A stretch of 64,000 nt of DNA from Myxococcales bacterium 68-20 (GTDB taxonomy: Bacteria; Myxococcota_A; Polyangia; Polyangiales; Polyangiaceae), in contig MKVQ01000040.1 of the NCBI GenBank assembly GCA_001899635.1, positions 251,915 to 315,914 of the forward strand. Reading direction: 5' to 3'. Shown here piece by piece: positions 6,473 through 33,155 of the stretch. Below the pieces are notes generated by a model, which saw only the letters and a program-made list of their open reading frames with translations, made no database searches and was not told where the DNA came from. The translations under genes and the position numbers were made by a program. Position 1 is the first letter of the stretch, and each line of letters opens with the position of its first letter.

Positions 6473-7531
6473 GTGAGCAGACGGAACGAGCTGAGCTCGT
6501 CATGGCGGCGTGCCCTTGGCGGCGTTGCCGTGATCGCCGTGTTGCTCGTCCCTGCATCGGCGCTTGCCGAGGTCGAGCCGGTCGCGATCCGCTACGAGAC
6601 GACCGGGGCTTGTCCCTCGGAGTCGGAGTTCTTGTCGGAGGTGCGCGGCTACACCACGCTCTGGTCGCCCGTGCCGGAGGGCACCACCGCGGCGCGAACG
6701 ATCCGCGTTCGCGTGACCGTGGGGCCGTCCGAGACTGTCGGCACGCTCGCCGTGGCGAACTCGAGCGGCGTGATCTCCGAACGGGACATCGTCGGCCCGA
6801 ACTGCACGGCGGTGTCTCGAGCACTGGCGGTCATGGTCGCCGTCGCGATCGACCCGCACGCGGGCGAGGCGAACGAACGACATCCCGACGAGAGCGCGAG
6901 CACGGCTGAACCCGATGCCGAGCGCGTACCACCGACTTCCGATCGCCTCGCGCCGCCCCAGCACCCGAAAGAAGCGTCACCTCCGATCGCCGGTCCACGC
7001 GTCACGCTCGACCTTCGAGTGGAGGCGACCTCTGCCGTCGTCCGAGGGTCGCTCACGGGGATCGGGATGTCGACGAAGCTCGAGCTCCCGGAGACCACGG
7101 GGCCACGTTGGCTCCGCGAGTGGAAGCCCAGCCTCGGGATCGGCATCCGTCAGAGCTTCCCGCAGGAGCGCAAGCTGAGCGGTGGCAGCGTGGAATTCCT
7201 ATGGACCGCGGGCCATCTTCGCGTCTGTCCGTTTCGGATCGCGCTCGGCGGCGTCGCGGAGGTGTCGCCGTGCGCCGAAATGAACATTGGACGCCTTCAC
7301 GCGTCTGCCGACGGCTTCCCCGATGCTCGAGGCGCATCGACGTTCTGGCTCGATCTCGGCGGATCGGTATGGGCCGCAGTGAACCTCTCCAAGCGGGTGT
7401 TCTTCAGCTCTACCGTGCTCGTGACGGCACCGGTCACCCGGCAGCCCTTTGCGCTCGCGAGCGGAGCGTCCGTCTCGACCGCCCCCGCGCTCGGTCTCCT
7501 GGGTGGAATCGGCGTCGGTGCTACGTTTTGA
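6473..7531 (+). CDS. Block A gene 1: secreted protein with N-domain and probable beta-barrel C-domain
   Basis: 352 residues from a GTG start that places a clean signal peptide at the N-terminus (cleavage expected after ALA, residue 32). An N-domain (about 35-130) has a conserved Cys pair, the first in ACPSE. A Pro/Ala/Glu-rich linker follows, then a C-terminal half (about 170-352) of alternating polar and hydrophobic stretches ending in Phe, as in outer-membrane barrels. The block B counterpart at 23682 has the same layout. The sigma factor gene follows after 63 bases. Function unknown; an outer-membrane sensor or anchor for the block is an inference. Confidence 0.75.
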   Translation: MSRRNELSSSWRRALGGVAVIAVLLVPASALAEVEPVAIRYETTGACPSESEFLSEVRGYTTLWSPVPEGTTAARTIRVRVTVGPSETVGTLAVANSSGVISERDIVGPNCTAVSRALAVMVAVAIDPHAGEANERHPDESASTAEPDAERVPPTSDRLAPPQHPKEASPPIAGPRVTLDLRVEATSAVVRGSLTGIGMSTKLELPETTGPRWLREWKPSLGIGIRQSFPQERKLSGGSVEFLWTAGHLRVCPFRIALGGVAEVSPCAEMNIGRLHASADGFPDARGASTFWLDLGGSVWAAVNLSKRVFFSSTVLVTAPVTRQPFALASGASVSTAPALGLLGGIGVGATF

Positions 7532-7594
7532 CCGGTCCTGAAGCTCGTCGGACGTTTTCGTGATCGGCACGGGCGGGTAGCGGCACTACGGCGC

Positions 7595-8230
7595 GTGCTG
7601 AACCCGTCGGCCGCTTCCGCGGCTGCTGCCAACCTGGTCGGGCGCGACGACGCAGAGAGTGATCCGGCGTTGCCTGCCCAGAGACCGACCGCGAGCGAGC
7701 TGGAGCGTGCCGAGCACCTTCGCGGGCTCGTACGGGAGCACTTCTCGAGCGTGTGGCGGTTCCTTCGACGGCTCGGCTTCGAAGAGCACCTCGTCGACGA
7801 CGCCGCGCAAGAGCTCTTCTTCGTCGCGCTCCGCCGCGCCGACGACATGACGCCGGGGCGCGAGCGCGCGTTCCTCTTCGGAGCCGCGCTTCGAATCGCG
7901 ACCAAGATGAAACGCAAGGGCGCGCGCGAAGTGCCGGTGGACCGGCTCGCCGAGCGCGCCGAGCCGTCGGACCGTGCGGCGACGCCGGAGAAGCTCCTCG
8001 ACGAGGAGCGGGCGCGCGCTCTCCTCTACCAACTGCTGTCCGAGCTCGAGGAGCGCCTTCGCGTCGTGTTCGTCATGTTCGAGCTCGAAGGAATGACCAT
8101 GCCGGAAATTGCCGAGGTGATCGACATCCCCGTGGGGACGGTGGCCTCCCGTCTTCGCCATGCACGCGAAGACTTCCGCGCGCGGCTCGAGCGGCACCGC
8201 GCGCGCACGCGGCGCGAGGTAGGCACATGA
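7595..8230 (+). CDS. Block A gene 2: ECF-type RNA polymerase sigma factor
   Basis: 211 residues from a GTG start. Sigma region 2 is at about 40-105 (WRFLRRLGF, DDAAQELFFVA) and region 4 at about 140-195, with a helix-turn-helix around EIAEVIDIPVGTVASRL. This is the ECF plan of regions 2 and 4 only. It redirects RNA polymerase to a small regulon, probably its own block. The stop overlaps the next start as ATGA, the usual coupling with a membrane regulator. Paralogous to the sigma factor at 24809. Confidence 0.93.
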   Translation: MLNPSAASAAAANLVGRDDAESDPALPAQRPTASELERAEHLRGLVREHFSSVWRFLRRLGFEEHLVDDAAQELFFVALRRADDMTPGRERAFLFGAALRIATKMKRKGAREVPVDRLAERAEPSDRAATPEKLLDEERARALLYQLLSELEERLRVVFVMFELEGMTMPEIAEVIDIPVGTVASRLRHAREDFRARLERHRARTRREVGT

Positions 8231-9030
8231 TCGAGGAACCGACACGTCTCATCCACGACGATCCGGAGTTCGCCAGTCTCGCGGCTGCAAGCAACAACGA
8301 CGGCCCGTCGAGCGCCGAGGTCGACAAGGCCCTGGCGCTCGCGACCCGGACCGCGATGACGTCGCCGCGGACGTCGTGGCGTTGGTTCGGAGCGAGCTTG
8401 GCGGTCGGCATCGCGGTCATCGGCACGTCCGTGATCGGTCTCGTCGGGATGCCTGGAGCTGCCCCCGCCCGCGATGCAGCCGTTCGAACGAGCGTCGTCA
8501 CGGCGCCTGCACCAAACACGCCCGCGGCAGAGACGCTGGTCGAGACGCCGGTGATGACCGTCTCCGTCGATGACCTCGCTTCCGCGCCATCCGCGCCGCC
8601 CGCCGCCGACCTCTCGGCGCGGACGTCACAGGCAAGGGCCGCAGCGCCTGCCGTCGTCGCACGATCAGGATCTCCGGAGGCGCAGAACGAGAGCGCAAAG
8701 ACGAGCCTGGACTCGCGCAGCGACACCGAGCTCGGGCGCACCGACGCAGGGAGTTCGACCTTCGCCGAAGAGTTCGCGCTCGTATCGGCGGCGCGCTCGG
8801 CGCTCGGGAGAGGCGACGTCCCCGCGTGCATGCGCGCCGTCGATCGCTATGGCGAGCGCTTTCGTTCGGGGATGTTCGCGCAGGAGATCGAGGTCATCCG
8901 CATCGAGGCGCTCGCTGCGTCGGGCGAGCGCGCCCGGGCGCACGCTGACGCGGAGCGATTTCTCGCAGCGAACGCGCGAAGCCCCTACGCGGATCGCGTT
9001 CGCTCGCTGCTCGAGCGAACCAGCCACTGA
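8227..9030 (+). CDS. Block A gene 3: single-pass membrane protein with helical-repeat tail, candidate anti-sigma factor
   Basis: 267 residues. A short cytoplasmic N-part (1-50) is followed by one membrane helix at about 53-75, a Pro/Ala/Thr-rich periplasmic linker (80-175) and a helical TPR-like domain (about 180-267). Its position directly behind the sigma gene with an ATGA overlap argues for an anti-sigma or sigma-regulator role. No zinc-binding anti-sigma motif (HxxxCxxC) is visible, so this rests on context. The block B partner at 25345 shares the layout and the short GPS-containing N-part. Confidence 0.75.
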   Translation: MIEEPTRLIHDDPEFASLAAASNNDGPSSAEVDKALALATRTAMTSPRTSWRWFGASLAVGIAVIGTSVIGLVGMPGAAPARDAAVRTSVVTAPAPNTPAAETLVETPVMTVSVDDLASAPSAPPAADLSARTSQARAAAPAVVARSGSPEAQNESAKTSLDSRSDTELGRTDAGSSTFAEEFALVSAARSALGRGDVPACMRAVDRYGERFRSGMFAQEIEVIRIEALAASGERARAHADAERFLAANARSPYADRVRSLLERTSH

Positions 9031-9076: not shown

Positions 9077-10336
9077 ATGGATGACCATCGTCCCCATCGC
9101 CCAGCACGCCTGCGAGGGCACACCCTCGCGAGGCTCGTCTACGTCGGCACGCTGTGTTTCACCGTGACGGCTCTCGCGACGCTCATCGCCTCGTGCACGG
9201 CGGATCGCGTTCCGATCATCCTCGGCAACGACCGCGGCGACGGCGCCGCTGCGCCCGCGTTCACGGAGACGCCGGACGCCGCGGCCGACGCCGAGGCCGG
9301 ACTCACCGCGTACTGCCCTTCGTCCGAGTGCCCGCCGGGGTGGACGACGTGCCCGGACTCGCGCTTCCCGTGCGACAAGGACATTCTCGCGGATTCACGC
9401 AACTGCGGCGGATGCGGAATGACCTGCCCGGATGGGAACGGGCTCGACGGCTTCGCGTGCATCGAGGGAGCATGCAAGCTCCAATGCAATCCGGCTTTCG
9501 GCCTCAAGGACTGCGACGGCCTCGTCGACAATGGCTGCGAGAGTGGGAGGCTTGACCCCAACAACTGCGGGGCGTGCGGCGTCGCGTGCGACGTCGGCGT
9601 GCAGTGTGTTTGGCAAGACGAAGTCGGGGGAGAGGTGGGGTGCGGATGCCCGGCCGGGCAGACGGCGTGCTCCGGCTCCTGCGTGGACACGAGTGGGGAT
9701 GATGCCAGCTGCGGCGCCTGCGACAACGTGTGCGATCGCGCCGGGGGAGCTGGCGCGTCGCAATACGCTCACGCGTTCTATGGGTGCGCGGCGAGCGAGT
9801 GCGGCCACATCAAGTGTGAAGCGCGCTACGCCAACTGTGACGGAGACATAGAGAACGGTTGCGAGGCGTCGACGCTCACGAATGAGAACTGCGGCGCGTG
9901 CGGCCGAGCCTGCGCGCCGGGACAGCAGTGTGCGTTGGATGGGCGGAATCGACCCTACTGCGCGTGCGCGGAGGACGGCTTCACGTTCTGTCAGTACGGA
10001 GAACAGGAAGGCCTTCCCAAAGGCGAATGTGTCGACACCAAGACAGCGATCGGCCATTGCGGTGGATGCTTCGCATCGTGCACTCCGGCCATCGTGTCGA
10101 TGCTCAAAGAGCGCGTCGCGTGCGACTACGGCAAGTGCACGGTCGTCTGCGTGGAGGGGCACGCCGACTGCAACGGCGCCGAATCCGACGGCTGCGAAGT
10201 CGACACGAAGAGCGACCCGCGCAACTGTGGCGGCTGCGGCATCACCTGCGATCTCTCGATCGGGCAAGCGTGCGCGGCGGGCAAATGCGTGGTCGTGCCG
10301 TGTGACCAAGTCGACGCGGGTGAGGTGACCCGATGA
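9077..10336 (+). CDS. Block A gene 4: Cys-rich NCGxCG-repeat lipoprotein
   Basis: 419 residues with a lipoprotein signal (lipobox IASC, Cys40). The mature part is packed with cysteines in a recurring pattern: NCGGCG or NCGACG followed by C, then CDG..NGCE. This pattern is typical of secreted Myxococcota proteins of unknown function, probably disulfide-stabilised and at the cell surface. It starts 46 bases after the membrane-regulator gene and overlaps the next gene by ATGA. Homologous to the protein at 26222, including the early ECPPGWTTCP-like stretch. Confidence 0.85.
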   Translation: MDDHRPHRPARLRGHTLARLVYVGTLCFTVTALATLIASCTADRVPIILGNDRGDGAAAPAFTETPDAAADAEAGLTAYCPSSECPPGWTTCPDSRFPCDKDILADSRNCGGCGMTCPDGNGLDGFACIEGACKLQCNPAFGLKDCDGLVDNGCESGRLDPNNCGACGVACDVGVQCVWQDEVGGEVGCGCPAGQTACSGSCVDTSGDDASCGACDNVCDRAGGAGASQYAHAFYGCAASECGHIKCEARYANCDGDIENGCEASTLTNENCGACGRACAPGQQCALDGRNRPYCACAEDGFTFCQYGEQEGLPKGECVDTKTAIGHCGGCFASCTPAIVSMLKERVACDYGKCTVVCVEGHADCNGAESDGCEVDTKSDPRNCGGCGITCDLSIGQACAAGKCVVVPCDQVDAGEVTR

Positions 10337-11511
10337 GCGTGTGGCGTTCTACCTTGGGCTTCGGCGTGGGCTCCGCGTGCACGCTGGCGGGGATCTTCGT
10401 CAGCGCGTGTGCGTCGGACGACGCGACCTTCAATCTCGATCCCGAGCGGACGGAAGTGGTCATCCCCGAGCGCGATGCCGGCGATGGGGACGGTTCGGAC
10501 GGGAGCGAGGCGTGCACCGGCGACGACTGCGCGTTCTTTCCCGCCGAGTGTGAGCCCGGAGCACTCTGTCCGAGCGGCCTGTTCGAAGCGGCCCCCTCCA
10601 GCGGTGTGGATTGGCGCACGTGGGTGTCGGCGATTCGAGGGCGCTCGGCGACGGATGCGTGGCTCGTCGGCACGGTCGGGCTGGCGGCCCGCTTCGACGG
10701 GACGACGTGGAAGACCGTCGACGTCGATACCGAAAACTCGCTTCGGTTCCTCTGGCTCGCGGAAGGTGGTGAGCTTGCGTTCGGCACGCCCGACGCTGTG
10801 TTCACGCGGGGACTGGGCGCTGGCGATGGCAACCCGTCGCCGGATGGATGGGTCAGCCGAGGGAAGGTGACGCAGCCGGCGGGGGCCAGCCGCTATGTGA
10901 CCACGGCATGGGGACGCACCGGTTCCCGCGCGATGTGGGTGGCGACGGACTCCGAAGTGTGGCGCATGCGCTTGGACGATGACGCGCTCACGACCGCGCC
11001 AGGTCTCACCACGTCGGTGTGCAGCAGCCTGCCGTGCAAGCACCTCCGAGGTCTCGACGGAGCATCCTCGAACGTCGTGTGGGGCGTCGGCGAGACGGGC
11101 GCGGCGATCCGCGTGGTCGACGCCGAGAGCGCGTCGCCGACCATCGAAGTGTCGAACCCGCTCGCGTGGCTGACGCTCAACGGCATCTGGGCGGTATCCG
11201 ACACTGAAGCGTGGGCCGTCGGAGCGCAAGGCACGGTCATCCACAACGTCGGCGCAACGTTCGACTGGAAGGTGGCCGACGTGCCAACACGGGCGAACCT
11301 GTACGCCGTCGCAGGTTCGTCGTCCTCGGACGTTTGGGCGGTCGGCGCCGAGGGCGTCGTCCTTCACTACGATGGAACGACCTGGTCGCGCGTGAAGGTC
11401 GCGGGGATGGGGCTTCGCCGGCCGGAGCTCCGATCGGTGTGGGTTCCGGAGCCCGGGAAAGTATGGATTGGAGGCCAAGGGGTTCTCCTCTCGCTCGGAG
11501 ACAAGCCATGA
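10333..11511 (+). CDS. Block A gene 5: WAVG-repeat (beta-propeller-like) lipoprotein
   Basis: 392 residues with lipobox VSAC (Cys26). The mature protein has repeated blades marked by DxWxVG, such as TDAWLVG, TEAWAVG and SDVWAVG, followed by a hydrophobic strand and an HYDGTTW-type turn. These resemble BNR or sialidase-like propeller repeats but lack catalytic residues that I can name. It ends in an ILSLG-like strand also found in the block B paralogue. ATGA overlaps on both sides imply co-translation. A binding or scaffolding role is inferred. Confidence 0.85.
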   Translation: MSVWRSTLGFGVGSACTLAGIFVSACASDDATFNLDPERTEVVIPERDAGDGDGSDGSEACTGDDCAFFPAECEPGALCPSGLFEAAPSSGVDWRTWVSAIRGRSATDAWLVGTVGLAARFDGTTWKTVDVDTENSLRFLWLAEGGELAFGTPDAVFTRGLGAGDGNPSPDGWVSRGKVTQPAGASRYVTTAWGRTGSRAMWVATDSEVWRMRLDDDALTTAPGLTTSVCSSLPCKHLRGLDGASSNVVWGVGETGAAIRVVDAESASPTIEVSNPLAWLTLNGIWAVSDTEAWAVGAQGTVIHNVGATFDWKVADVPTRANLYAVAGSSSSDVWAVGAEGVVLHYDGTTWSRVKVAGMGLRRPELRSVWVPEPGKVWIGGQGVLLSLGDKP

Positions 11512-12947
11512 GACTCCCCTATTTGCTCGCAACATCAGCGGCGGCGCTGGCTGCCCTCGTCGCCTGCGCGGCGGCGGATGGAGATGCGGTCGCGCTCGAG
11601 CCTGCTCGCGACGGTGGAACGGTGGTTCCGGAGGTGGCGTCTCCCATCGAAGCGGACGCGGCGACGCCGACGCGCGACGCGTCGGCGCCCGTGTGGTCTG
11701 CGTGCAACGACCACGGATGGTGCGAGACGGAGCTGCCGGGGCCGGACCTGACGCTGTTCGACGTTTGGCCCTTCGAAAAGCGGGCGTTCGCCGTCGCGCA
11801 GAGCGAGACGCTCGGAACGAAGCTGCTCGAGTGGACCGAGGCGACGGCAAAGTGGACCTACGTCGACGACAACTCGCAGAATGCGTACGGCCGCGGCCAC
11901 TACACGGGGAAGATGTTCGCCCCGAGCGAGAACGAGGTCTACTTCATCACGGCGCCAGGCCTCGTCTTCCACGGAACACGCGCGAATCCACAATCCGCGT
12001 TCACGTGGGAGTCGGCGCGACTTCCATACGACGGTCCTGTCTACCCGGATCGTGATCCGGGGATCGCCCGGAGGTCGGACAACGCCCTGGTCGCACCGCC
12101 ACGTTTCGTCTACGCGCTCGGCGTCTTCGGTACGTCGGAGGGCGACGTCTATGCGTGGTTTGGCAACCGCATCTTCCGTCGCACGCGCGTCGACGGCGCG
12201 CCTCCGACATGGGTTTCCGAGTTCGTTGCGGAAGATCCCGATGTGCCCTCGGACGAGTCCTTCTACATCTTCAACGCCGCGAAGGGAGAGGGCGACGAAG
12301 TCTGGTTCGTCGGCGGGCGCGGTACGTACGTCAGCAATAGCTACCAGGGCTGTCCGACGCTGTACCGTCGCACGGCCGCCGGCTATTCGGCGGTCATCAA
12401 CGCTTCGATGGTCAGTTTCAGTTGTTCAACGCGCCCGGGATCGATCGACCCGACGTTGGTGATCGACATCCCTGGCTTGGGACCGTATCCCCTCCCTCTT
12501 TCGTCTGACGGCTGGGGGACGGCGGTGCTCTCCGTTGGCTCCGGGCAGGCCGTCCTTCTGCTCGATGGCAACAACACCTTCTACTACATCGATCTCGCGA
12601 AGGGCATCGCACGGCTCAACGAGATCCGCTCCGTCGTGCCGCCGGTCATGACCGGCACTCCGCTCCTTCACTCCGGCGTCCGCCTCGGCGACCGGATGTG
12701 GCTCAGCGGTCACGGCATTGCTTTCAGCTCGGAGATCAAGAAGGAGCCGTGGGAGGCGTCGATTGGCATCGGCACGCTCGAGCACTTCCAGCAGGCGGGC
12801 ACCGAAGTTGGTGCGCTGCTCGAGCTGTCCAGCGTGGAGATGAAAGGGCGCTACCTGAACGAGCCGCTCTACCAGGTGCGAGGAACGTCGGCGAACAACC
12901 TCTGGGTAGTCGGAAACCGCTATGCACTTCACAAGAAGACTCCTTGA
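11508..12947 (+). CDS. Block A gene 6: second WAVG-related lipoprotein
   Basis: 479 residues with lipobox LVAC (Cys20). The start is fixed by the ATGA overlap and the signal peptide. After an Asp/Ala-rich linker, a conserved GWCETELP segment opens a region of WD/BNR-like strands (about 70-470) ending in NNLWVVGNRYALHKK. The block B partner (28596) shares the opening and closing segments but is about 30 residues shorter. No catalytic motif was recognised. The last 26 bases overlap the RCC1 gene. Confidence 0.8.
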   Translation: MRLPYLLATSAAALAALVACAAADGDAVALEPARDGGTVVPEVASPIEADAATPTRDASAPVWSACNDHGWCETELPGPDLTLFDVWPFEKRAFAVAQSETLGTKLLEWTEATAKWTYVDDNSQNAYGRGHYTGKMFAPSENEVYFITAPGLVFHGTRANPQSAFTWESARLPYDGPVYPDRDPGIARRSDNALVAPPRFVYALGVFGTSEGDVYAWFGNRIFRRTRVDGAPPTWVSEFVAEDPDVPSDESFYIFNAAKGEGDEVWFVGGRGTYVSNSYQGCPTLYRRTAAGYSAVINASMVSFSCSTRPGSIDPTLVIDIPGLGPYPLPLSSDGWGTAVLSVGSGQAVLLLDGNNTFYYIDLAKGIARLNEIRSVVPPVMTGTPLLHSGVRLGDRMWLSGHGIAFSSEIKKEPWEASIGIGTLEHFQQAGTEVGALLELSSVEMKGRYLNEPLYQVRGTSANNLWVVGNRYALHKKTP

Positions 12948-14280
12948 TCGGCGACGTTCTGGGCTGCTCGTCGCGATGTCGGTGCTCGCCGCTTCGGCGG
13001 CAGCCGTGAGCTGCTCGAGCAGTGACGAGCCAGACCTTCAGCCGCCCACCGACGCGGGCTCGGAGAGCTCGGACGCACCCTCCGAGGCCGACGCGAGCGA
13101 TGGGGACGCAGCTGTTTTCGAGGGGCAGCCGCTTCCCGTCGTGTGCGCGTCGACGCCGTGCGCGACCGATCTCGTGACGACGCTCGGTGCGAACGAGGAC
13201 GATGGCGCCGAGGGGTTCTGCGTCCTGCTCGACGATGGCACGGTCGCGTGCTGGGGCGCGAACGGCGCGGGCCAACTCGGTCGCGGAGAGGGCGAAGACG
13301 AAGCGCTCGTCGACAGTGCGACGGCGGCCAAGGTCGTCGGCCTCTCGAACGTCGCGTCGCTCGACCACACGTGCGCGCTCGACAAGAGCGGCGGCGTTTG
13401 GTGCTGGGGAATCGGTCCCTTTTCCTGGACCGACGAGGGCGTGGTCAGCACCACCTCCACCTCGCCCGTGAAGCTCCCGCTACCGCCCGCCACGAACGTG
13501 GCACGCAGTTTCGAAACCGCGTGCGCAATCGTGGGCGCGAACGATGTTCGTTGTTGGGGCGATAACCGGCTCGGCCAGCTCGGACCGCTCACGGAGACGT
13601 TCAACGGCGAGCCGCAGCGGGCGGAGCTTCCTGAGGGAGCACGAGCATCGTCGCTGGCAATGGGCAATGCCACCTTCGTCCTTCGCGAGGATGGCGCCCT
13701 TGTGAGCTGGGGCGGAAACCCGGGCATCGGACGTGTATCGCCAAGCTTCCCGGACCCGCGCCCGCAACCCGTCTCGCTTTCGCGCGTCACGGAGGTCGAC
13801 GCCACGCGCAACAACACGTGTGCGATAGCGAATGGTAAGCCGTATTGCTGGGGCGCGCGCCTCGTGCCCACCGAGGGGACACTCGTGGAGCGGGCGCTCC
13901 CCGAGCCGGCGGTCGCGCCCGAGCCGCTCGTTCGAATCGCGACGACCCACTCGGAAGGATACGTGTACCCCGCAAGCAAGAAGCTCGTCGGGTTCAAGCC
14001 CTACCGATGGTGCGCCGTGGGCGCTTCGGGAAGCCTCTACTGCTGGGGCTACAACACCAGCGGGCAGGCGGGGACAGGGGACCAAGAGTTCGTCACGCGC
14101 GCCACGTTGGTCGACGGCCTTCCAGAGAAGGTGGCGCGCGTGCGAACGACGATGAACACGACGTGCGCGCTGCTCACGAACGGCAAGGTGTACTGCTGGG
14201 GCAGCAACTACTACGGGCAGCTCGGCAACGGGTTGAATCGAGGCGGAACCTTCGTTCCGACAGAGGTGGTGCTTCCATGA
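12922..14280 (+). CDS. Block A gene 7: seven-repeat RCC1-like propeller lipoprotein
   Basis: 452 residues with lipobox AVSC (Cys31). Seven RCC1-type repeats can be read, most with Cys-Ala-(Leu/Ile/Val) and CWG marks; the clearest last one is VYCWGSNYYGQLGNG. Seven repeats match a complete seven-bladed propeller. Unlike classical RCC1 repeats, most have two cysteines, so blade disulfides are likely outside the cell. The start overlaps the previous gene by 26 bases, exactly as in block B. This supports the ATG chosen over a later internal Met. Confidence 0.88.
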   Translation: MHFTRRLLDRRRSGLLVAMSVLAASAAAVSCSSSDEPDLQPPTDAGSESSDAPSEADASDGDAAVFEGQPLPVVCASTPCATDLVTTLGANEDDGAEGFCVLLDDGTVACWGANGAGQLGRGEGEDEALVDSATAAKVVGLSNVASLDHTCALDKSGGVWCWGIGPFSWTDEGVVSTTSTSPVKLPLPPATNVARSFETACAIVGANDVRCWGDNRLGQLGPLTETFNGEPQRAELPEGARASSLAMGNATFVLREDGALVSWGGNPGIGRVSPSFPDPRPQPVSLSRVTEVDATRNNTCAIANGKPYCWGARLVPTEGTLVERALPEPAVAPEPLVRIATTHSEGYVYPASKKLVGFKPYRWCAVGASGSLYCWGYNTSGQAGTGDQEFVTRATLVDGLPEKVARVRTTMNTTCALLTNGKVYCWGSNYYGQLGNGLNRGGTFVPTEVVLP

Positions 14281-23415: not shown

Positions 23416-23681
23416 GAGCCCCGCTCTCGACGGCGTCATGCTCACCGCGCGTCATCGCCCGCGCGGTGAGCGGCTGCACTCCGCGACACCGAGCCGGATA
23501 GCGAGGCGCGTGCTGTCTCTCGAGCGCTGCGAGCATCGGTGAGAATGCCCAGCCTTCCACGACGCCGGCACACGCGTCCCCATAGCGCGACCGTACGTGC
23601 GCGCGGAGCCCCGTTCGTCCTTTCATCTGGTTCGGTGTCCCACGGTTCGGAGTAGCATCGCGGGTCGAGGGTTCGAAGACC

Positions 23682-25348: not shown

Positions 25349-26196
25349 AGACGGAGTATCCCGACGCTCCGCGCGCCGGCGAGCAGGATCCCGAAGGACT
25401 GCGCGCGTTCGTGCGCTCACGCCAGGTCGGCCCCAGCGATGCTGCTCTGGATCGAGTGGCGAAGCGCCTCGCAACGGCCGGGGTCCTCAGCCCTACGCGG
25501 AAGCCGGCCAGCGACCGGCCTTCGGTCAACGGGAAAGTTGCATACTACAAGGCTGGCCTTCTCGCGGCCGCCGTTGCGGGGGTGCTCGCAGTCTCTTGGG
25601 ATCGGGCGGAGAGACCGTTCGCCGGGACCAATGAACAGGCGCCATCGATGACGGCGCAATCACCCGCACCGGAGGTCGTGTCACCGGCGTCGGAGTTGCC
25701 GGTCGCGCAGGTGGCGCAGGTCGCCGTGGCGCCGGAGCCCGATCGCCCCGCGGCCGTGGTCTCGGTCGATCAGCTCCCCTCCGCACCTCCCCTCGCGCGA
25801 GGCATCAGCTCCACTCCCGCTGCTGCGAAGAGCACGAAGTCGCCGGCCGGCGGCGCCGAGGCGGCGCCGTCCGCGACGGAGCTCGAGCTGGTCCAACGCG
25901 CGCAGGCAGCGCTCGCGTCCGATCCGAATCGCGCGCTCACGCTCACGAACGAGCATGCTGTCACGTATCCAAAGGGCGAGCTCGTGCAGGAACGCGAGGT
26001 GACCGCCGTCGAGGCGCTTGCGCGGCTCGGGCGAAACGAGGAGGCCTCGCGCCGCGCGCTCGCTTTCGTGCGCCGCTTCCCGCAGACCCCTTACGCCGCG
26101 CGCCTCGAGATGGCGATCGGGCGCCCTCTGCCGGCGCCGTCCGGCGCCTCGACCCCCGAGGCGAGCGCCCGCTCGCTCTCGACCGCCACTCCGTAA
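25345..26196 (+). CDS. Block B gene 3: single-pass membrane protein with helical-repeat tail, candidate anti-sigma factor
   Basis: 283 residues. The layout equals the block A partner: a cytoplasmic N-part with GPSDAALDRVAK, one membrane helix at about 68-84, a Pro/Ala/Val-rich linker, and a TPR-like domain at about 190-260 ending in a FPQTPYAARLE-type helix. No zinc anti-sigma motif is seen. The assignment as sigma regulator rests on the coupled position and membrane topology. Confidence 0.75.
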   Translation: MKTEYPDAPRAGEQDPEGLRAFVRSRQVGPSDAALDRVAKRLATAGVLSPTRKPASDRPSVNGKVAYYKAGLLAAAVAGVLAVSWDRAERPFAGTNEQAPSMTAQSPAPEVVSPASELPVAQVAQVAVAPEPDRPAAVVSVDQLPSAPPLARGISSTPAAAKSTKSPAGGAEAAPSATELELVQRAQAALASDPNRALTLTNEHAVTYPKGELVQEREVTAVEALARLGRNEEASRRALAFVRRFPQTPYAARLEMAIGRPLPAPSGASTPEASARSLSTATP

Positions 26197-26221: not shown

Positions 26222-27409
26222 ATGCTTCGACCCATCGCGCGCTACGGCGCGCCATTCACGCTGACTGCGTCCGTCGCGCTCGTGTGGCTCTTCGGCGGCT
26301 GCCGCGGGCCCGACGTCACCATCGCCGAGTCGTACGACGCAGGGTCGCCGCCGGCCTTCGTGGAGCCGGACGCCGAGGCCCCCAAGCCGGAGCTCGCGCT
26401 CACGGAGTACTGCCCGCTGACGACCTGCCCGATGCCGTACACGACCTGCCCGACCTCGCAGTACCCGTGCGACGTCAACCTGATGACCGACCCGAAGAAC
26501 TGCGGGGCCTGCGGGTTCCAATGCGCCGGGAGCGGCAACGCCACGTTCGAATGCGTGAGCGGGAAGTGCACCTTCCGCTGCACGGAGTCGAACGGGATCC
26601 GCACGGCCGACTGCAACGGCATCGTCGACGATGACTGCGAGGTCACGCTCGGGACGAACGACAACTGCAACGGCTGCGGCGACCGCTGCCCGGACCCGAA
26701 CAAGCCGTGCATTTACGACGAGACCACGCAGGTCGGCCGCTGCGGATGTAAACCAGGGCTTCTCCTCTGCGGAGAAAAGTGCGTCGACCCGACCGACGAC
26801 GACGAGCACTGTGGTGCCTGCGACCATAAGTGCGACCCAGCCGATGGAGGCGCCGGAAGCGACGGAGGCGCGCCTCCAGCCAATGCGTACTACGGCTGCC
26901 AGAAGAGCGAGTGCGGACATCTGAGATGCCGATATCCATTTTTCAGTTGCGATGGAGATCTCTCGAACGGATGTGAGGTTTCGCTCCTGAGCAACGAGCA
27001 TTGCGGCGCGTGCAATAACGCCTGCGCTCCCGGGCAGACGTGCCGTGCGAACAGTCAGGGACAGCCCGAGTGCATGTGCGCTCCCGGCTTGACCCTCTGC
27101 GGGAAGAAATGCGTCAACCTGACGACCAGTCCCGAACACTGCGGCGCCTGCGGGAACCGCTGCTTCGTTGTCGGCTCGGCCATGAATCAGGTCGGTACGT
27201 GCGCCTACGGCTACTGCATTCAAGAATGCAGGCAGGGCTGGGGTGATTGCAATGGAGACCCCAGCGACGGTTGCGAGGTGAACCTGAACTCCGATCAGCG
27301 CAATTGCGGGACGTGTGGGAACGCATGCGATGTGCTCGCGGGGCAACCCTGCGTCGGCGGAGGGTGCGCCGTTCATCCGTGCAGCGAAGGCGAGGAGGAG
27401 GCGCGATGA
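26222..27409 (+). CDS. Block B gene 4: Cys-rich NCGxCG-repeat lipoprotein
   Basis: 395 residues with lipobox FGGC (Cys27). GAAGGA at 26207-26212 stands nine bases before this ATG and directly abuts an in-frame ATG at 26213, so 26222 is preferred. The mature part repeats NCGACG or HCGACG with C and CDG..NGCEV. It parallels the block A protein closely in the opening TEYCPLTTCP-type segment and the final NCGTCG unit. Probably disulfide-rich and surface-exposed. It overlaps the next gene by ATGA. Confidence 0.85.
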   Translation: MLRPIARYGAPFTLTASVALVWLFGGCRGPDVTIAESYDAGSPPAFVEPDAEAPKPELALTEYCPLTTCPMPYTTCPTSQYPCDVNLMTDPKNCGACGFQCAGSGNATFECVSGKCTFRCTESNGIRTADCNGIVDDDCEVTLGTNDNCNGCGDRCPDPNKPCIYDETTQVGRCGCKPGLLLCGEKCVDPTDDDEHCGACDHKCDPADGGAGSDGGAPPANAYYGCQKSECGHLRCRYPFFSCDGDLSNGCEVSLLSNEHCGACNNACAPGQTCRANSQGQPECMCAPGLTLCGKKCVNLTTSPEHCGACGNRCFVVGSAMNQVGTCAYGYCIQECRQGWGDCNGDPSDGCEVNLNSDQRNCGTCGNACDVLAGQPCVGGGCAVHPCSEGEEEAR

Positions 27410-28599
27410 AAGCCGCTCGTGCGATCGCGGCCCTCGGCGCACTGAGTGTGGGCGCCTTCTTCCTCGCCTGCGCGTCGGACGAAGACCCGACGCTCGCCGA
27501 CCCCAACAACGAGAGCCGCGTACCCGGGCTCGACGGCGGAGCGGACGCCGATGCGAGTCAGAGCGAGGACGAGCCGTGCGTGCCCGGCGCTCTCTGCCCG
27601 TTCGGTCCTTTCGAGCCGTCCACTCCCGGCGGCGCGCTCGATCTCCGTACGCGCATCCACTTGATCCGCGGTCGCTCCCCGAGCGACGTATGGGCGCTCG
27701 GAGCGCGCGGCGCCGTCGCGCATTTCGACGGGACGTCCTGGTCGCGCGCCGAGACCGGAGCCACCGAATCCTTCCGGGCCGTCTGGCTTCGCGAAACGAG
27801 TGAGATCGCGCTGGCGTCGCTCGACGCCATCTACTCGCGGAACGCCGGTCTCGACGGCCCCGACGGAGGCGTGCCCTCGGCGGGCGGCTGGCTCCGAACG
27901 AACCCGGCCGCGACCGCACCCGAGATGGCCGGCCGGCCTGAAAACGTGAGCTCGGTCTGGGCCTCGCCGTCCGCGGAGTGGCTCTGGGGAACGAGCACCC
28001 TCGCCGATTGGATAGAAGGGATAAAGGAGAACGGCCTCTGGCGCGCGCGCATCGCGCCCGGGACGCAGACGCTCGAGGTCGCCCCTGCGCTGCCGCGTCA
28101 CGCGTGCGAGCTGATGGGATGTGTTCAGATGCTCAGCATCCACGGCAGCTCCGCCGACGATCTCTGGGCGGTGGGCGTCAGGGGTGCCGCGTTCCACATC
28201 ACGGGTGCCCAGAGCGAGACGCCGACCATCACTGCGTTCGACAGTCAGACCTGGGCCGGGCTGGACGGTGTTTGGGCTGCCTCGGCGACGGACGTCTGGG
28301 CGGTAGGCGGCGCCGGCACGATCCGTCGGTACACGGGCGGTGCTGTCTCGCTCGACGTCGTCGACGGCGTGCCGACCACCGAGGATCTGCACGGCGTCTG
28401 GGGCACGTCCTCGTCGGACGTCTGGGCGGTCGGCGATGCCGCGACTGTCCTCCACTACGACGGAGCAACGTGGTCCCGCGTGGAGATCCGGGGTCTCGGT
28501 CAGCGCAAGCCAAACCTCTTCACCGTCTGGTCGCCCGCTCCCGGTCATGTCTGGGTGGGCGGCGAAGGCGTCATTCTTTCGCTTGGAGGCAAGCCATGA
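27406..28599 (+). CDS. Block B gene 5: WAVG-repeat (beta-propeller-like) lipoprotein
   Basis: 397 residues with lipobox FLAC (Cys22). Blades are marked by SDVWALG, DDLWAVG, TDVWAVG and SDVWAVG, with HFDGTSWSR and HYDGATWSR turns. The conserved head EPCVPGALCPFGPF matches the block A paralogue. It ends with GHVWVGGEGVILSLG. No catalytic residues were recognised. The start is fixed by the ATGA overlap with the Cys-rich gene. Confidence 0.85.
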   Translation: MKAARAIAALGALSVGAFFLACASDEDPTLADPNNESRVPGLDGGADADASQSEDEPCVPGALCPFGPFEPSTPGGALDLRTRIHLIRGRSPSDVWALGARGAVAHFDGTSWSRAETGATESFRAVWLRETSEIALASLDAIYSRNAGLDGPDGGVPSAGGWLRTNPAATAPEMAGRPENVSSVWASPSAEWLWGTSTLADWIEGIKENGLWRARIAPGTQTLEVAPALPRHACELMGCVQMLSIHGSSADDLWAVGVRGAAFHITGAQSETPTITAFDSQTWAGLDGVWAASATDVWAVGGAGTIRRYTGGAVSLDVVDGVPTTEDLHGVWGTSSSDVWAVGDAATVLHYDGATWSRVEIRGLGQRKPNLFTVWSPAPGHVWVGGEGVILSLGGKP

Positions 28600-29939
28600 G
28601 ACGTCCGCTCGCAGGCATCGCGCTTCTCTGCGGAGCGCTCGGCGCGCTCGGCGTTGTTGCGGCGTGCGCCGCAACGGGCGTCCAGGATACGGCGCAGGAG
28701 ACGCCGGTCGACCCCGGCGACGGCGGCTCGATCGTGCTCGGGGACGCCGCCCACCCACGCGATGCGGCCGACGAGGGCTCTGGCGAACCGCCGGTGTGCA
28801 GTCCGGCAGGCTGGTGCCAAACCGAGCTGCCCGCCAGCGACATCCACCTCGTCGACGTCTGGCCGGTCGGATCCCGCGCCTTCGCCGTCGCAACGAGTAC
28901 GGTGCACGGGATTAAGTTCCTCGAATGGGATGCGGCGGGCGGCTGGAAGTTCATCGACAAGAAGATGGGATTTTCCAGATTGATGAGCCCGGTCAACGTA
29001 TGGGCCCCTGACGAGAACGAGGTGTTCTTCGTGATCTCGGACACGTCTGGATTCAGCGTCGGGCGGCCGATTGGTGCCCTCGTGCTGCGTGGAACGCGAC
29101 CAACCCCACCGGAGACCACGTGGTCGTGGACTCGCTCGCAGATCGATTGTCCGGACCTCACGCACAGCCGGGCCCAAGCCGTCCTATGGGGCGCGAGCCG
29201 CGACGAGGTTTATCTGGCCGTCTGCGAGAGCGTGTATCGCCTGAATCGGAGCGCGCCCCTCGATTCCGGTGTGGACGGGGGACACGCCGGTGTCGACGGC
29301 GGCGCCGCGGTCTCTGACGGCTGGGAGGTCGAATACGCAGTCAGCGACCCCAACTTCCAGCAGTGGACGGCGGTGACCGGGACCGGGACCGGTGACGTCT
29401 GGTTCGTCGGGATCCAGGCCGCGGGGGCCGACCAGTGCGTCCTTTTGATCCGAAAGACCTCCGAGGGGTACACCACCGTCGTAGACGGAGTTCCGACTGC
29501 GGGCGAGCGCTGCGTAGCGAAGCCCGGTGTCGCGATGATCCCCGGGCAGTTCTACCACGCCCATGTGCCGGTCAAGGATCGACTCGTCGGCGTCCACGCG
29601 CTCGGTTTTGGTTCGGACGTCGACAACGACATCGTTCAGGTCGCCGTCGTGAGCGGCGAGGTCCAGATCAAGCGGGCGAGCCCCGCGAGCACGATGGAGG
29701 TCACGTTGAGGTCCGTGTGGGGGACGTCGCCGGACGACCTCTGGGTGATCGCAGATCGTGGTGCAAGCAGCATCTTGCGCGCGACCTCCGTATGGGATGG
29801 CGCCGGAAAGTTCGAATTCTCGACGCTTGCCATCAATGGTGCGCCGAACTTGGCGCCCCTGTCGCGAATTCGTGGGACATCGAATCAGAACCTCTGGGCA
29901 GTCGGGAGAGATCGTGCGTACTTCAAATCGACTCCGTGA
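28596..29939 (+). CDS. Block B gene 6: second WAVG-related lipoprotein
   Basis: 447 residues with lipobox VAAC (Cys24). The conserved GWCQTELP opening and the SNQNLWAVGRDRAYFKS end align with the block A partner. The middle has strands of the DVWFVG and DLWVIA kind plus a Gly/Asp-rich insertion (about 225-240). It is coupled to its neighbours by ATGA upstream and a 26-base overlap downstream. Confidence 0.8.
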   Translation: MRRPLAGIALLCGALGALGVVAACAATGVQDTAQETPVDPGDGGSIVLGDAAHPRDAADEGSGEPPVCSPAGWCQTELPASDIHLVDVWPVGSRAFAVATSTVHGIKFLEWDAAGGWKFIDKKMGFSRLMSPVNVWAPDENEVFFVISDTSGFSVGRPIGALVLRGTRPTPPETTWSWTRSQIDCPDLTHSRAQAVLWGASRDEVYLAVCESVYRLNRSAPLDSGVDGGHAGVDGGAAVSDGWEVEYAVSDPNFQQWTAVTGTGTGDVWFVGIQAAGADQCVLLIRKTSEGYTTVVDGVPTAGERCVAKPGVAMIPGQFYHAHVPVKDRLVGVHALGFGSDVDNDIVQVAVVSGEVQIKRASPASTMEVTLRSVWGTSPDDLWVIADRGASSILRATSVWDGAGKFEFSTLAINGAPNLAPLSRIRGTSNQNLWAVGRDRAYFKSTP

Positions 29940-31314
29940 GCGCTGCACGTCGGCTCTGATCGCCCTCGCCTCGATCGCGGCGGCCACGGCGGCAGGCGCT
30001 AGCGCAGCCAGTTGCACGAACGACAACGACATCCTGCCCGGCCAGGAGACGGACGCCTCGACCAACGAGGACGTGACGGACGGCTCCGCGAACGAGGACG
30101 CGGATGCAGGCGCGCCCCGCAGCCCGTTTCGCGACGCTGCCACGTCCGACGCGGCTCCAGAGCCGGTCGTCTGCGAATCATCACCTTGCGCAGTTTCGCT
30201 CACCACGACCGGCACCGACACGTACTGCGTCCTGCTCGAGGACAAGACCGTTGCCTGCTGGGGAGCCAACCTCGTGAGAGGAAACCGCTTGAGCGGGGAC
30301 CTCGGGCGGGGGCCCAACATGCGCGACGACAGCGCCGATCCAGCGCGCGTCGTCGGCCTGACCGACATCCGCTACCTCAATCGCGGCTGCGCGATCGACG
30401 GCTCCGGCGCGACGTGGTGCTGGGGGACCGGTCCCTATCTCCAATCGACGACGACGGCATTCACCACCGAACCGGTTCCCGTGAAGCTGCCGATCCCGGC
30501 CGCGACCAGCGTGAGCATCGGCTTCTATCGTCAGGACACGGTGAATTATTTCGCTGTTGGTTGCGCGACGGTGCAGGCTGGACTGATTTGTTGGGGAACG
30601 AACGGGATGGGACACCTCGGGCCGATGGAGCTCGGGGGCAGCAGCACGGCACCTCACGAGGCGCGTACCATCGCGCTGCCGCCGGGCGCGCCGATCGAGA
30701 GCATCGTCGTCGGACAGGCTGCCTTCGCAGTTCGTTCCGACGGAACGGTGCTGAGCTGGGGGCGGAATCCGCCTCTCGCGCGCATCTCGTCGCTGTTCCC
30801 GGATCCGTACCCGAGGCCGGCGATGCTGAACGGGATCTCGAGGCTCGAGGCCTTCCGCGAGAACGCGTGCGCCGTTGCGCAGGGGATCGCGTACTGCTGG
30901 GGCGGAAATCCTCACGGCAGCGCCATCTACGGCATGGAGGAGCCGATGAAATTCGCGATCCCCAAGGCGATCGCAACGCCAGAGCCGGTCGTCGACATCG
31001 CCACGCACTCGTGCCTCGACTACGGCGGCAGCATGCAGCATGGCTGCGCGGTGGGCGTCTCCGGAGCTCTCTATTGCTGGGGGGAGAACCTCTACGGCCA
31101 GGTTGGTGACGGCACACGCGAGTACGCGCTCTCGCCCGTCAAGGTCACGGGTCTACCGGGTCGCGTATCGCGTGTGAAGACGACCAGGCTGTCGACGTGC
31201 GCGCTCCTCACCACGGGGAAGGTCCATTGCTGGGGAGACAACCGCTACGGCCAGCTCGGCAACGGCGACATCCGGGCCGCGAGCACCGTTCCGCAGGAGG
31301 TACTGCTGCCATGA
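29914..31314 (+). CDS. Block B gene 7: seven-repeat RCC1-like propeller lipoprotein
   Basis: 466 residues from a GTG that aligns base for base with the ATG of the block A gene and gives the same 26-base overlap. The lipobox is AASC (Cys34). Seven RCC1-type repeats are readable, most with a CA(V/I/L) and CWG pair, the last KVHCWGDNRYGQLGNG. A full seven-bladed, disulfide-rich propeller outside the cytoplasm is the likely structure. Confidence 0.88.
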   Translation: MRTSNRLRERCTSALIALASIAAATAAGASAASCTNDNDILPGQETDASTNEDVTDGSANEDADAGAPRSPFRDAATSDAAPEPVVCESSPCAVSLTTTGTDTYCVLLEDKTVACWGANLVRGNRLSGDLGRGPNMRDDSADPARVVGLTDIRYLNRGCAIDGSGATWCWGTGPYLQSTTTAFTTEPVPVKLPIPAATSVSIGFYRQDTVNYFAVGCATVQAGLICWGTNGMGHLGPMELGGSSTAPHEARTIALPPGAPIESIVVGQAAFAVRSDGTVLSWGRNPPLARISSLFPDPYPRPAMLNGISRLEAFRENACAVAQGIAYCWGGNPHGSAIYGMEEPMKFAIPKAIATPEPVVDIATHSCLDYGGSMQHGCAVGVSGALYCWGENLYGQVGDGTREYALSPVKVTGLPGRVSRVKTTRLSTCALLTTGKVHCWGDNRYGQLGNGDIRAASTVPQEVLLP

Positions 31315-33155
31315 CTCGCTCCGCGAGCCGTTCCGTCACGACCGTGGTCACTGCGTTGGGGGCGGTGCTCGCGGTGAGCACCGCGAGCCTTGCAGCTTGC
31401 AGCACCCGTGAGGCGGGGTTCGATTCCTCGCAGGGGACCTTCGTCGAGGATGCCTCTACCGACGGACCGAGCTGTTACTTCCAGTGTTCGCTCGATGGCC
31501 GGTCGGTCGTGCAGACATGCACCGGCGAGGTCGTCGAGACGTGCCCTCCACACCTCGCGTGCGGAGCGGGGGCGTGCCAGGAGCCGTGCGCCGCGGCCGC
31601 CGCCGATCGGAGCTCGAATGGCTGCGAATTCTACCTCCAGCCGCCGCCGTACAGCGCCATCGACATCGGCCAGAGCTGTTACGCGGCCTACGTCGTCAAC
31701 ACGTCCGCCGTGCCCGTCGAGGTTGAGCTTTCGCTAGACGGACAGAAGCTCGATCTCTCGAAGGCGCTCTTCACGCTGAAGCCCGGCGGCGACGTCTCCT
31801 GGACGCCTCAGGTCGGCCCGATCGCGCCCGGAGAGAGCGTGGCCCTCTTCGTATCCGATGCGAAGCCCGGATCCGTGTCACCAGGCAGTATCCACACGGC
31901 GTGTCCCAAAGAGGCCGTCCCCGCGAGCTATACCAATTCGCTCCCCAACGGGACTGGCTTCGGATCGTCGTTTCACCTGACCACGAGCGCGCCCGTGAGC
32001 CTCTCGGCGATCTTTCCGTACAGCGGAGCGGAGAGCCACATCGCGTCTGCGACGTTGCTCTTGCCGGTCGCGACCTGGGGAACGGAGCACATCATCGTCA
32101 ACGCATGGGAGCAGTTGACCCACCCGCTCCAGGCGTCGCCGAGCGGGCCCGCGGCGCAGATCGTGGCTTCCGAGGACGACACCGAGATCACGATTGTCCC
32201 GAAGCGCGATATCCAGGACGGTATCGGGTTCGTCGGCGCCCCCGCCAACGTCCCGGCGACGTATCACCTCGCCAAGGGGCAGCTCCTCCAGATCAACCAA
32301 GCGCAGGAGCTCTCCGGGAGCATCGTCCGATCGAACAAGCCCACGAGTGTGTTCGGCGGTCACGAGTGCATGAACGTTCCCTCGATGAGGGCTGCATGTG
32401 ACGCCGCGCTCCAGCAGCTCCCGCCCTTCCCGCAATGGGGATCGGAATACGTCGGCGTCGGCTACCGGCCGCGCCTCGGAAACGAGTTCGAACCGATGCC
32501 CTATCGCATCGTCGCCGCGCGCGATGGGACGCGGCTCGACTACGACCCCGCCGTCCCGGCGGGTGCTCCGCTCGAGATGTCGGCAGGCGAGGTCGTCACG
32601 TTCTGGTCGGGCACGGGCCAGCCGTTCGTCGTCCGCAGCCAGGACGCCGAACACCCCTTCTACTTGGCCGCGTACATGTCGAGCGGCGGCAAGATCCATT
32701 TGACTACCGGGAACGCCACAGACTTCCTCAGCCCGCTCGACTTCGGCGGCAGGGGCGATCCCGAGTTCGTCAACGTCGTCCCGGCGAGGCAGTACCTCAA
32801 CGCGTACAGCTTCTTCGCCGATCCGTCGTACCAGGAGACGGCCCTCACGATCGTGCGCGCGAAGAGCGGCGATGCCTTCAAGGACGTGTGGCTCGAGTGC
32901 GCCGGCAACCTCACCGACTGGAAGTCGGTCGGAACGCGCGGCGAGTACGAGTTCACGCGCGTCGATCTCGCGCGCAACTTCGGTCCCGGGCAGTCCTTCG
33001 GCTCGAGCGTCTGCCAGAAGGGCCTCCAGCGTATGAAGAGCGAAGGCCCCTTCACGGCGACGATCTGGGGATGGTCGCAATGGACGAGCTACGCCTATCC
33101 GGGCGGACAGGCACAGCGAAAGCTCGTCGACACTCCTCTCCTGACCGTGCACTGA
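31311..33155 (+). CDS. Block B gene 8: IgGFc-binding-like lipoprotein
   Basis: 614 residues with lipobox LAAC (Cys30). The Cys-rich head (QCSLDGRSVVQTC, SSNGCEFYL) and the large beta-rich domain (about 110-605) align along their length with the block A protein, sharing NKPTSVFGG, FVVRSQDAEHPFY, GDPEFVNVVPA and an IWGWSQW-type end. The ligand is unknown. It ends the block and is followed by a short GC-rich hairpin. Confidence 0.82.
   Translation: MTRSASRSVTTVVTALGAVLAVSTASLAACSTREAGFDSSQGTFVEDASTDGPSCYFQCSLDGRSVVQTCTGEVVETCPPHLACGAGACQEPCAAAAADRSSNGCEFYLQPPPYSAIDIGQSCYAAYVVNTSAVPVEVELSLDGQKLDLSKALFTLKPGGDVSWTPQVGPIAPGESVALFVSDAKPGSVSPGSIHTACPKEAVPASYTNSLPNGTGFGSSFHLTTSAPVSLSAIFPYSGAESHIASATLLLPVATWGTEHIIVNAWEQLTHPLQASPSGPAAQIVASEDDTEITIVPKRDIQDGIGFVGAPANVPATYHLAKGQLLQINQAQELSGSIVRSNKPTSVFGGHECMNVPSMRAACDAALQQLPPFPQWGSEYVGVGYRPRLGNEFEPMPYRIVAARDGTRLDYDPAVPAGAPLEMSAGEVVTFWSGTGQPFVVRSQDAEHPFYLAAYMSSGGKIHLTTGNATDFLSPLDFGGRGDPEFVNVVPARQYLNAYSFFADPSYQETALTIVRAKSGDAFKDVWLECAGNLTDWKSVGTRGEYEFTRVDLARNFGPGQSFGSSVCQKGLQRMKSEGPFTATIWGWSQWTSYAYPGGQAQRKLVDTPLLTVH

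Follow-up and report, generated by a model that had tools for sequence, protein, structure and literature searches.

Bacteroides carries SusCD polysaccharide-utilisation loci, many paralogous surface-lipoprotein operons with their own regulators (pairs of an extracytoplasmic function (ECF) sigma factor and an anti-sigma factor). Cassette-based surface variation, drawing on a large stock of paralogous lipoproteins, is found at vlsE of Borrelia and vlhA of Mycoplasma gallisepticum. FecA-FecR-FecI systems (ECF242; excerpts of PMC9239204) comprise a TonB-dependent receptor with an N-terminal signalling domain, a FecR-type regulator and an ECF sigma factor. Here we analyse a block of eight genes that occurs twice, as blocks A and B, in a stretch of 64,000 nucleotides (the window) from Myxococcales bacterium 68-20 (GenBank assembly GCA_001899635.1, contig MKVQ01000040.1, positions 251,915 to 315,914 of the forward strand). 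The source genome (11.9 Mb) belongs to the Polyangiales, the order that also includes Sorangium, and lies near Labilithrix, another member of that order. Each block encodes, in this order, a secreted protein with a predicted outer-membrane barrel (sec, gene 1), an ECF sigma factor, a membrane protein (mem), a Cys-rich lipoprotein (cys), a propeller lipoprotein of the WAVG type, a second WAVG-type lipoprotein (WAVG2), an RCC1-repeat lipoprotein and an IgGFc-binding-domain lipoprotein (gene 8). The original prediction, made from the window alone, had placed these eight genes in the same order at 6473-16070 and 23682-33155; both blocks are present there in that order, and their gene overlaps match each other. 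It had also known of no described system with such a gene set, and none was found among the titles and the openings of abstracts covered by the literature search.

The two blocks belong to a large family. With gene 8 of block B as query, the source genome gave at least 142 matches, most of them full length and 38-66% identical, a lower bound since the best 150 of 167 candidates were scored. The eight gene families were then sought with iterated profiles in 137 stretches covering all 142 matches. At least 127 blocks with four or more of the five cargo genes were recovered, a minimum confined to blocks carrying gene 8, from which the list was seeded. All five cargo genes were present in 121 blocks, a collinear sigma and membrane gene in 119, and all eight genes in collinear order in 99; in 94 of the 127, each of the eight collinear genes covered at least 85% of its profile. 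The layout of a switch followed by lipoproteins, read at first from two copies, is supported by the family. The blocks are spread over 35 of the 52 contigs and divide between the two strands as 66 and 61; 28 have a further block within 11 kb. Measured by stop-to-stop frames, the family spans about 1.18 Mb, or 9.9% of the assembly. The assembly is 98.4% complete with 4.2% contamination; strain mixing is an unlikely cause of the copy number, because even the nearest copies have median protein identities of only 46-70%.

Each block is made up of a switch triad (sec, sigma, mem) and a cargo pentad (cys, WAVG, WAVG2, RCC1, IgGFc), and these two modules have had separate histories. Pairwise identities were correlated within the triad (rho 0.35-0.43) and within the pentad (0.68-0.81), compared with -0.03 to 0.11 between the two. 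Among the 99 complete blocks, genes of the triad shared the same nearest neighbour in 43-55 cases and genes of the pentad in 48-62, whereas the nearest neighbour by triad average and that by pentad average agreed in 2 (1000 permutations: mean 1.0, maximum 6). The contrast is visible in individual pairs. Blocks C17_56076m and C40_522015p have pentads that are 71-90% identical and triads that are 21-32% identical, with synonymous divergence (dS) of 0.20-0.36 in the pentad and 0.96-1.63 in the triad; the halves of one block therefore differ in age. Conversely, C33_28385m and C43_678059m have triads that are 61-80% identical and pentads that are 50-63% identical. In approximately unbiased (AU) tests on 36 blocks, two pairs that are sisters by pentad were rejected on triad data (p = 7e-43 and 9e-131; C17_56076m was flagged as a long branch in these tests), and two triad-related pairs were rejected on gene 8 data (p = 5e-8 and 2e-37), where one control pair had a support of 94.7 and the other of just 65. 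When pentads were sorted into their two main types, 56 of 93 blocks had the same type as their nearest neighbour by triad, against 48.2 +- 5.7 expected; this was not significant (205 of 2000 permutations at least as high; 6 of the 99 blocks were left out as minor clusters). A two-cluster cut split the pentads 2/97 and was uninformative.

The pentad has been exchanged or copied between loci as one cassette. In five pairs of blocks with close pentads, the shared DNA was a single segment of 6.8-7.0 kb with 84-88% identity, which began within cys and ended between -2 and +86 nt from the stop codon of gene 8. The edge of the module falls inside cys: the first 30 or so aligned columns, covering the leader and linker, tracked the triad weakly (rho 0.08-0.12) and the pentad with a rho of 0.00, and from column 30-40 onward the protein tracked the pentad (rho 0.48-0.71; sliding windows). 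Because no conserved recombination site was seen downstream of gene 8, the exchange probably proceeds by homologous recombination or gene conversion and not by a site-specific recombinase. The likeness of pentads also shows a spatial pattern. For the 31 pairs of complete blocks lying less than 25 kb apart, pentads were more alike than expected by chance (0 of 5000 permutations as high), and triads were not (751 of 5000). In arrays of three blocks each on contigs C17 and C12, adjacent pentads were 66-79% identical next to unrelated triads (25-29%). Tandem duplication of whole blocks would have made both modules alike. What is copied locally thus seems to be the pentad, a direction we infer. The original prediction had proposed a dedicated switch for one structure; correlations, nearest neighbours, AU tests and this proximity test agree in leaving switch and cargo lineages unlinked, and that part of it is not supported.

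The modules also differ in how widely they occur. At E <= 1e-50, gene 8 was found in 13 of 29 genomes, including the source genome, and counts in 11 sister species of the genus were at least 38, 11, 4, 3, 2, 1 and 1, with 0 in four. All 13 stretches examined from three sister species (L173-L185) held blocks, or parts of blocks cut by the ends of contigs or stretches. The gene order, whose conservation in other genomes the original prediction had made a test, is thus kept both in the 127 blocks of its own genome and, in full or contig-limited form, in three sister species. Seven stretches from five other genomes (L186-L192; one within the genus) carried gene 8 without a block, and in L189 a weak cys and another, weak gene 8 were present as well. 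Named hits with gene 8 and no block are Sorangium cellulosum and three contigs of metagenome-assembled genomes (MAGs). A Labilithrix MAG contained a partial pentad at a contig end, 84-92% identical to one in the source genome. WAVG2, used as a marker of the pentad, was found at E <= 1e-25 in 7 of 29 genomes, with one weak partial match outside the genus, and at E <= 1e-40 in 7 of 183 genomes of the order, one of them from another family, with at most 10 candidates scored per genome (both counts include the source genome). The sole match outside the genus in the latter search, G047:C195:152-1303, lies at a contig start, and either horizontal transfer or contamination could account for it. The mem gene was found at E <= 1e-15 in 25 of the 29 genomes across the order, the source genome included. 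Thus the switch spans the order, and the pentad is nearly confined to one genus; on this distribution the switch would seem to be the older of the two.

Eleven stretches from relatives with both modules were compared for pairing. The triad of L177 (genome G003) is 78/85/75% identical to that of C40_531625p, the next best values being 52/66/46%, and we take the two switches to be probable orthologues; the cargo differs, the L177 pentad being 29-53% identical to that of C40_531625p and 66-82% to another cluster. In L178 and L181, the best cargo match was another block, with the cargo of the switch partner close behind, and in 4 of the 11 stretches (L176, L182, L184 and L185) the pairing had no clear assignment.

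Features of the two window blocks are collected in Table 1. Gene starts were picked from lists of open reading frames (ORFs), and the overlaps depend on the starts so chosen: in both blocks, 4-bp overlaps join sigma to mem, cys to WAVG, WAVG to WAVG2 and RCC1 to IgGFc, and WAVG2 and RCC1 overlap by 26 bp. The gap between mem and cys is 46 bp in block A and 25 bp in block B. An alignment of the eight pairs, called for by the original prediction, gave significant BLASTP matches for seven, with identities of 35% (sigma), 28% (mem), 42% (cys), 40% (WAVG), 28% (WAVG2), 42% (RCC1) and 53% (IgGFc) and E values from 1.7e-4 (mem) to 0. The sec pair had no BLASTP match at E <= 10; its alignment score of 96 exceeded the maximum of 66 in 200 shuffles (8.2 SD above), and profiles place both proteins in one family. 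A re-reading upheld the lipobox in all ten window lipoproteins, none with Asp at +2 (the box of 10333-11511, VSAC-A, was read by eye). Of the 629 cargo proteins of the family, 546 had a recognisable lipobox; Asp at +2, the inner-membrane retention signal of E. coli, was present in 3 of these. The limits of the block A cassette run from the AYCP motif of cys, at the start of the Cys-rich domain, to 10 nt past the gene 8 stop; for block B, whose best gene 8 match is 66% identical, no related cargo is close enough to map the edge.

Table 1. Features of blocks A and B (window coordinates).
Feature	Position	Strand	Description	Module
-10-like element TACGTTCG	6441..6448	+	upstream of block A gene 1; candidate promoter	
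Block A gene 1 (sec)	6473..7531	+	signal peptide, periplasmic domain, Pro-rich linker, predicted 8-stranded outer-membrane barrel	switch
Block A gene 2, ECF sigma factor	7595..8230	+	PF08281 55.8 bits, PF04542 27.4 bits, both above cut-off	switch
Block A gene 3 (mem)	8227..9030	+	short N-terminus, one transmembrane helix, TPR-like tail; presumed anti-sigma	switch
Block A gene 4 (cys), Cys-rich lipoprotein	9077..10336	+		leader sorts with switch, mature part with cargo
Block A gene 5, WAVG (YCF48-like) propeller lipoprotein	10333..11511	+	PF14870 E 1.6e-4, below cut-off	cargo
Block A gene 6, second WAVG-type lipoprotein	11508..12947	+	no Pfam family	cargo
Block A gene 7, RCC1-repeat lipoprotein	12922..14280	+	PF13540 107.4 bits (5 stretches), PF00415 64 bits	cargo
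Block A gene 8, IgGFc-binding-domain lipoprotein	14277..16070	+	PF17517 320 bits, cut-off 25.6, residues 240-570	cargo
Block A cargo cassette	9311..16080	+	DNA 85% identical to block ending C6:32692; switches of both unrelated	
-10-like element TAGCATCG	23653..23660	+	upstream of block B gene 1; candidate promoter	
Block B gene 1 (sec)	23682..24737	+	predicted OmpA/OmpW-like barrel with periplasmic domain; AlphaFold2 pLDDT 87	switch
Block B gene 2, ECF sigma factor	24809..25348	+	TIGR02937 69.9 bits, cut-off 42.9	switch
Block B gene 3 (mem)	25345..26196	+	two short N-terminal helices, presumed transmembrane helix 63-88, TPR-like tail 179-258	switch
Block B gene 4 (cys), MXAN_6577-like Cys-rich lipoprotein	26222..27409	+	NF041328 104.6 bits, cut-off 100	
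Block B gene 5, WAVG propeller lipoprotein	27406..28599	+	39.6% identity to block A gene 5	cargo
Block B gene 6, second WAVG-type lipoprotein	28596..29939	+	27.9% identity to block A gene 6	cargo
Block B gene 7, RCC1-repeat lipoprotein	29914..31314	+	41.7% identity to block A gene 7	cargo
Block B gene 8, IgGFc-binding-domain lipoprotein	31311..33155	+	52.9% identity to block A gene 8	cargo
Block B cargo cassette	26408..33155	+	EYCP motif of cys to gene 8 stop; drawn by analogy with block A	

Profile searches covered block A with Pfam and block B with NCBIfam. Both sigma factors have regions 2 and 4 of the ECF type above cut-offs (PF04542 and PF08281 in block A, TIGR02937 in block B), the RCC1 repeats of block A gene 7 exceeded the curated cut-off, and block B gene 4 was assigned to NF041328 (MXAN_6577-like). 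The assignment of gene 8 to PF17517 is a family name and would not imply binding of antibody Fc; no credible relative of gene 8 was found by sequence among solved structures (PDB). An AlphaFold2 model of block B gene 1 matched OmpA, OmpW and NspA over residues 178-351 (Z 16.6-17.2), and this predicted fold was carried over to the block A copy, which rests on its ORF and profile family. Two likenesses of the periplasmic domain of gene 1, to the Caulobacter lipoprotein 4kwy (Z 8.9, root-mean-square deviation 3.6, 102 aligned residues) and to TolB in the Foldseek list, were too weak for use. No FecA-type signalling domain was among the structure matches of gene 1, which excludes nothing. The model of block B gene 3 had a predicted local distance difference test (pLDDT) score of 74 overall and of about 97 in its tail, where the tetratricopeptide repeats (TPR) of BamD/YbgF were among the best structure matches; with E >= 0.037 these indicate the fold class only. 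In block A, mem had a weak YfiO/BamD match in Pfam, below cut-off. A FecR domain was absent at E <= 0.1 from both blocks in the profile searches.

The sigma factor and membrane protein of a block co-vary (rho 0.40), and a start codon yielding the 4-bp overlap between their genes exists in 91 of 112 pairs, the script having favoured such starts. In some rearranged blocks, gene 1 follows gene 8 or lies on the opposite strand, and at C44:189317, C23:234638 and L184 the triad, or sigma plus mem, points away from the pentad yet adjoins it; that the parts stay adjacent argues for a working link between switch and cargo. No promoter motif common to all blocks was found, and a search for mirrored promoters in divergent blocks gave no clear result. 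The sequence TA[GC]NNTCG, an element picked after viewing alignments, occurred 28 times before gene 1 compared with 3.0 expected (107 blocks).

The account we favour, at slightly under an even chance, is that the blocks encode surface complexes that can stand in for one another and be switched on separately, a repertoire for variable contact or recognition. The barrel of each block would sense something at the cell surface and its periplasmic domain would signal to the TPR tail of the membrane protein, whose short cytoplasmic part would then release the sigma factor. The released sigma factor would switch on its own block, and the five-protein complex would be displayed on the outer membrane. 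Recombination, by re-assorting switches and pentads, would produce a repertoire of separately switchable complexes, the likeliest use of which would be in variable contact, by adhesion or recognition, with other cells, with prey, with phages or with surfaces, and not in the uptake of one nutrient per locus. One switch lineage stands before many pentad lineages, so the sensor would not dictate which pentad is made, and a barrel that varies with sigma, not with cargo, would be ill suited to a ligand-specific uptake locus. We advance a more specific form of this reading tentatively, as possible and no firmer than that: a combinatorial surface-identity system with more than 100 separate ECF sigma switches, each linked to an outer-membrane sensor of its own, that would drive over 100 interchangeable complexes of five lipoproteins. 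Recombination at one set position just after a lipoprotein leader would keep re-pairing switches with complexes, giving a wiring specific to each lineage.

Several observations weigh against a repertoire that is switched and re-paired in this way. The N-terminal 60 or so residues of mem were modelled at low to medium confidence, and no anti-sigma domain was recognised in this protein by the profile searches of either block. Over most of its length the TPR tail tracked sigma (partial rho 0.10-0.32) above the barrel (0.05-0.17), and an order of relay from barrel to tail, sought in the co-variation of parts of mem, was not supported since the tail follows sigma more. The TA[GC]NNTCG element resembles a housekeeping -10 and was also in 2.25-fold excess before 313 control genes; neither it nor any other promoter could be assigned to a block sigma factor. 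No switch gene was found within the stretches read for C42:267276, C23:252323 and C31:4693. As to re-pairing, C48_535084m and C40_479181m are close in both modules, 2 of the 31 neighbouring pairs do share triads (50% and 59%), and among the relatives pairing was conserved in L175 and L179 and mostly in L173 and L180, so exchange is not fast.

The triad might instead be a bystander, an older envelope-sensing sigma module that serves other genes, with pentads inserted behind it and read from a general promoter. The presence of mem in far more genomes than the pentad marker (at the thresholds given above) would fit this explanation, as would the unlinked histories of switch and cargo, the housekeeping-like element, the three blocks with no switch gene nearby, and the at least 147 and at least 148 matches, some of them fragments, to two triad proteins in the source genome (150 candidates scored each) compared with 127 blocks. 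It accounts poorly, however, for the 119 of 127 blocks that keep sigma and mem collinear with the pentad and for the switch genes that still adjoin the pentad in several rearranged blocks; moreover, the gaps of 46 and 25 bp between mem and cys in the window make read-through into the pentad likely. We consider this explanation rather unlikely. Sec and mem genes with no gene 8 match nearby also lie outside the 127 blocks, for example at G000:C34:79141-81522, C43:74306-76769 and C40:173168-175572.

A mostly neutral or selfish expansion, in which cassettes spread by duplication and gene conversion with no benefit per copy, is improbable in our judgement. It would explain why gene 8 matches range from 0 to at least 38 among species of the genus against at least 142 in the source genome, why neighbours share pentads and why fragments of gene 8 occur. 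On the other side, dN/dS was 0.18-0.56 in the closer module of seven block pairs, which indicates purifying selection, as the original prediction had supposed when it ascribed the retention of both copies to selection, and the 94 blocks with eight collinear genes of near-complete length speak against such an expansion. The short fragments of gene 8 (G000:C48:255582-256012, C23:209643-209900, C38:44359-44553 and C48:573169-573279) are probably remnants of decayed blocks, and suggest birth and death of copies. A variant at G000:C9:36865-67924 (L165, L171) has barrel, sigma and membrane genes followed by two gene 8 homologues, with no cys, WAVG or RCC1 gene above profile thresholds; it may be a reduced version of the block or an earlier one.

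Another explanation is that the blocks are loci for nutrient or glycan uptake, like the SusCD loci, the lipoproteins capturing the substrate that the sensor recognises. Such loci would be expected to form many paralogous lipoprotein operons and to pair each of them with a sigma factor and a membrane protein, as the blocks do, and propeller domains are able to bind sugars or proteins. A sensor matched to its substrate should nevertheless co-vary with the cargo, which it does not; the predicted barrel has 8 strands; and no TonB-dependent receptor, SusC, SusD or enzyme was recognised among the eight proteins in the profile searches. We regard uptake loci as distinctly improbable. Finally, a single duplication of one block, with a dedicated switch for one multi-part surface structure, fits the window alone, where A and B share their gene order, and can be given hardly any weight beside at least 127 blocks in which A and B, as distant members of a large family and not the duplicated block first described, rank only 32nd-101st among each other's relatives when genes are compared one at a time, with different closest relatives for switch and cargo.

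Four other genes of the window were noted. Immediately behind block A, 16312-18507 encodes a probable lipoprotein of 731 aa with a PF09826 beta-propeller domain (435 bits). Another probable lipoprotein, of 915 aa with Kelch repeats and a disintegrin-like stretch, is encoded at 53780-56527, a Cys-containing protein of 602 aa with a weak EGF_3 match, below cut-off, at 48269-50077 (minus strand), and a protein of 912 aa with a Ser/Thr kinase domain, AAA_16 and a weak TPR match at 37168-39906.

The family opens two testable questions: how many ECF sigma factors can work in parallel without crosstalk, and by what means a bacterium of the myxobacterial group maintains and re-wires large families of surface structures. 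Natural recombinants, with unrelated switches before near-identical cargo and the converse, are ready-made experiments, and, should insulation be confirmed, the blocks could also supply sigma/regulator pairs that are insulated from one another.

Among described systems, the triad is closest to FecA-FecR-FecI as presented in the excerpts of PMC9239204, in that a barrel, a membrane protein with one transmembrane helix and an ECF sigma factor are encoded side by side and co-vary, and a similar signalling logic may apply. In contrast to that system, the barrel is predicted to be 8-stranded and OmpA/OmpW-like and not a TonB-dependent receptor, and the membrane protein has a TPR-like tail in place of a detectable FecR domain; neither a TonB receptor with an N-terminal signalling domain nor a FecR-type regulator was found in the blocks by the profile searches. 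What the blocks share with SusCD loci is that one genome holds many paralogous operons for surface lipoproteins, with a regulator for each operon, but SusC, SusD and enzymes were not found in the blocks by the profile searches, and switch and cargo re-assort. With vlsE and vlhA the blocks share a large stock of paralogous lipoproteins and the exchange of a defined lipoprotein cassette between loci, as in antigenic-variation cassette systems, the surface location being a prediction here. Unlike those cassettes, that of the blocks comprises five genes. A sigma and a membrane gene lie collinear with the cargo in 119 of the 127 copies, which argues against one expression site with silent donor cassettes, and no such site was seen in the sequence. 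Titles and openings of abstracts yielded no bacterial system that has more than 100 full multi-gene operons, every one with a sigma factor of its own, and whose switch and output evolve as modules shuffled separately. The terms IgG, lipoprotein and RCC1 did not occur in the text of PMC3696898, which describes Sorangium cellulosum So0157-2 as having a large genome with 109 dispersed sigma factors. The expansion described here differs from it in that 119 sigma genes belong to one operon family and are tied to five lipoproteins.

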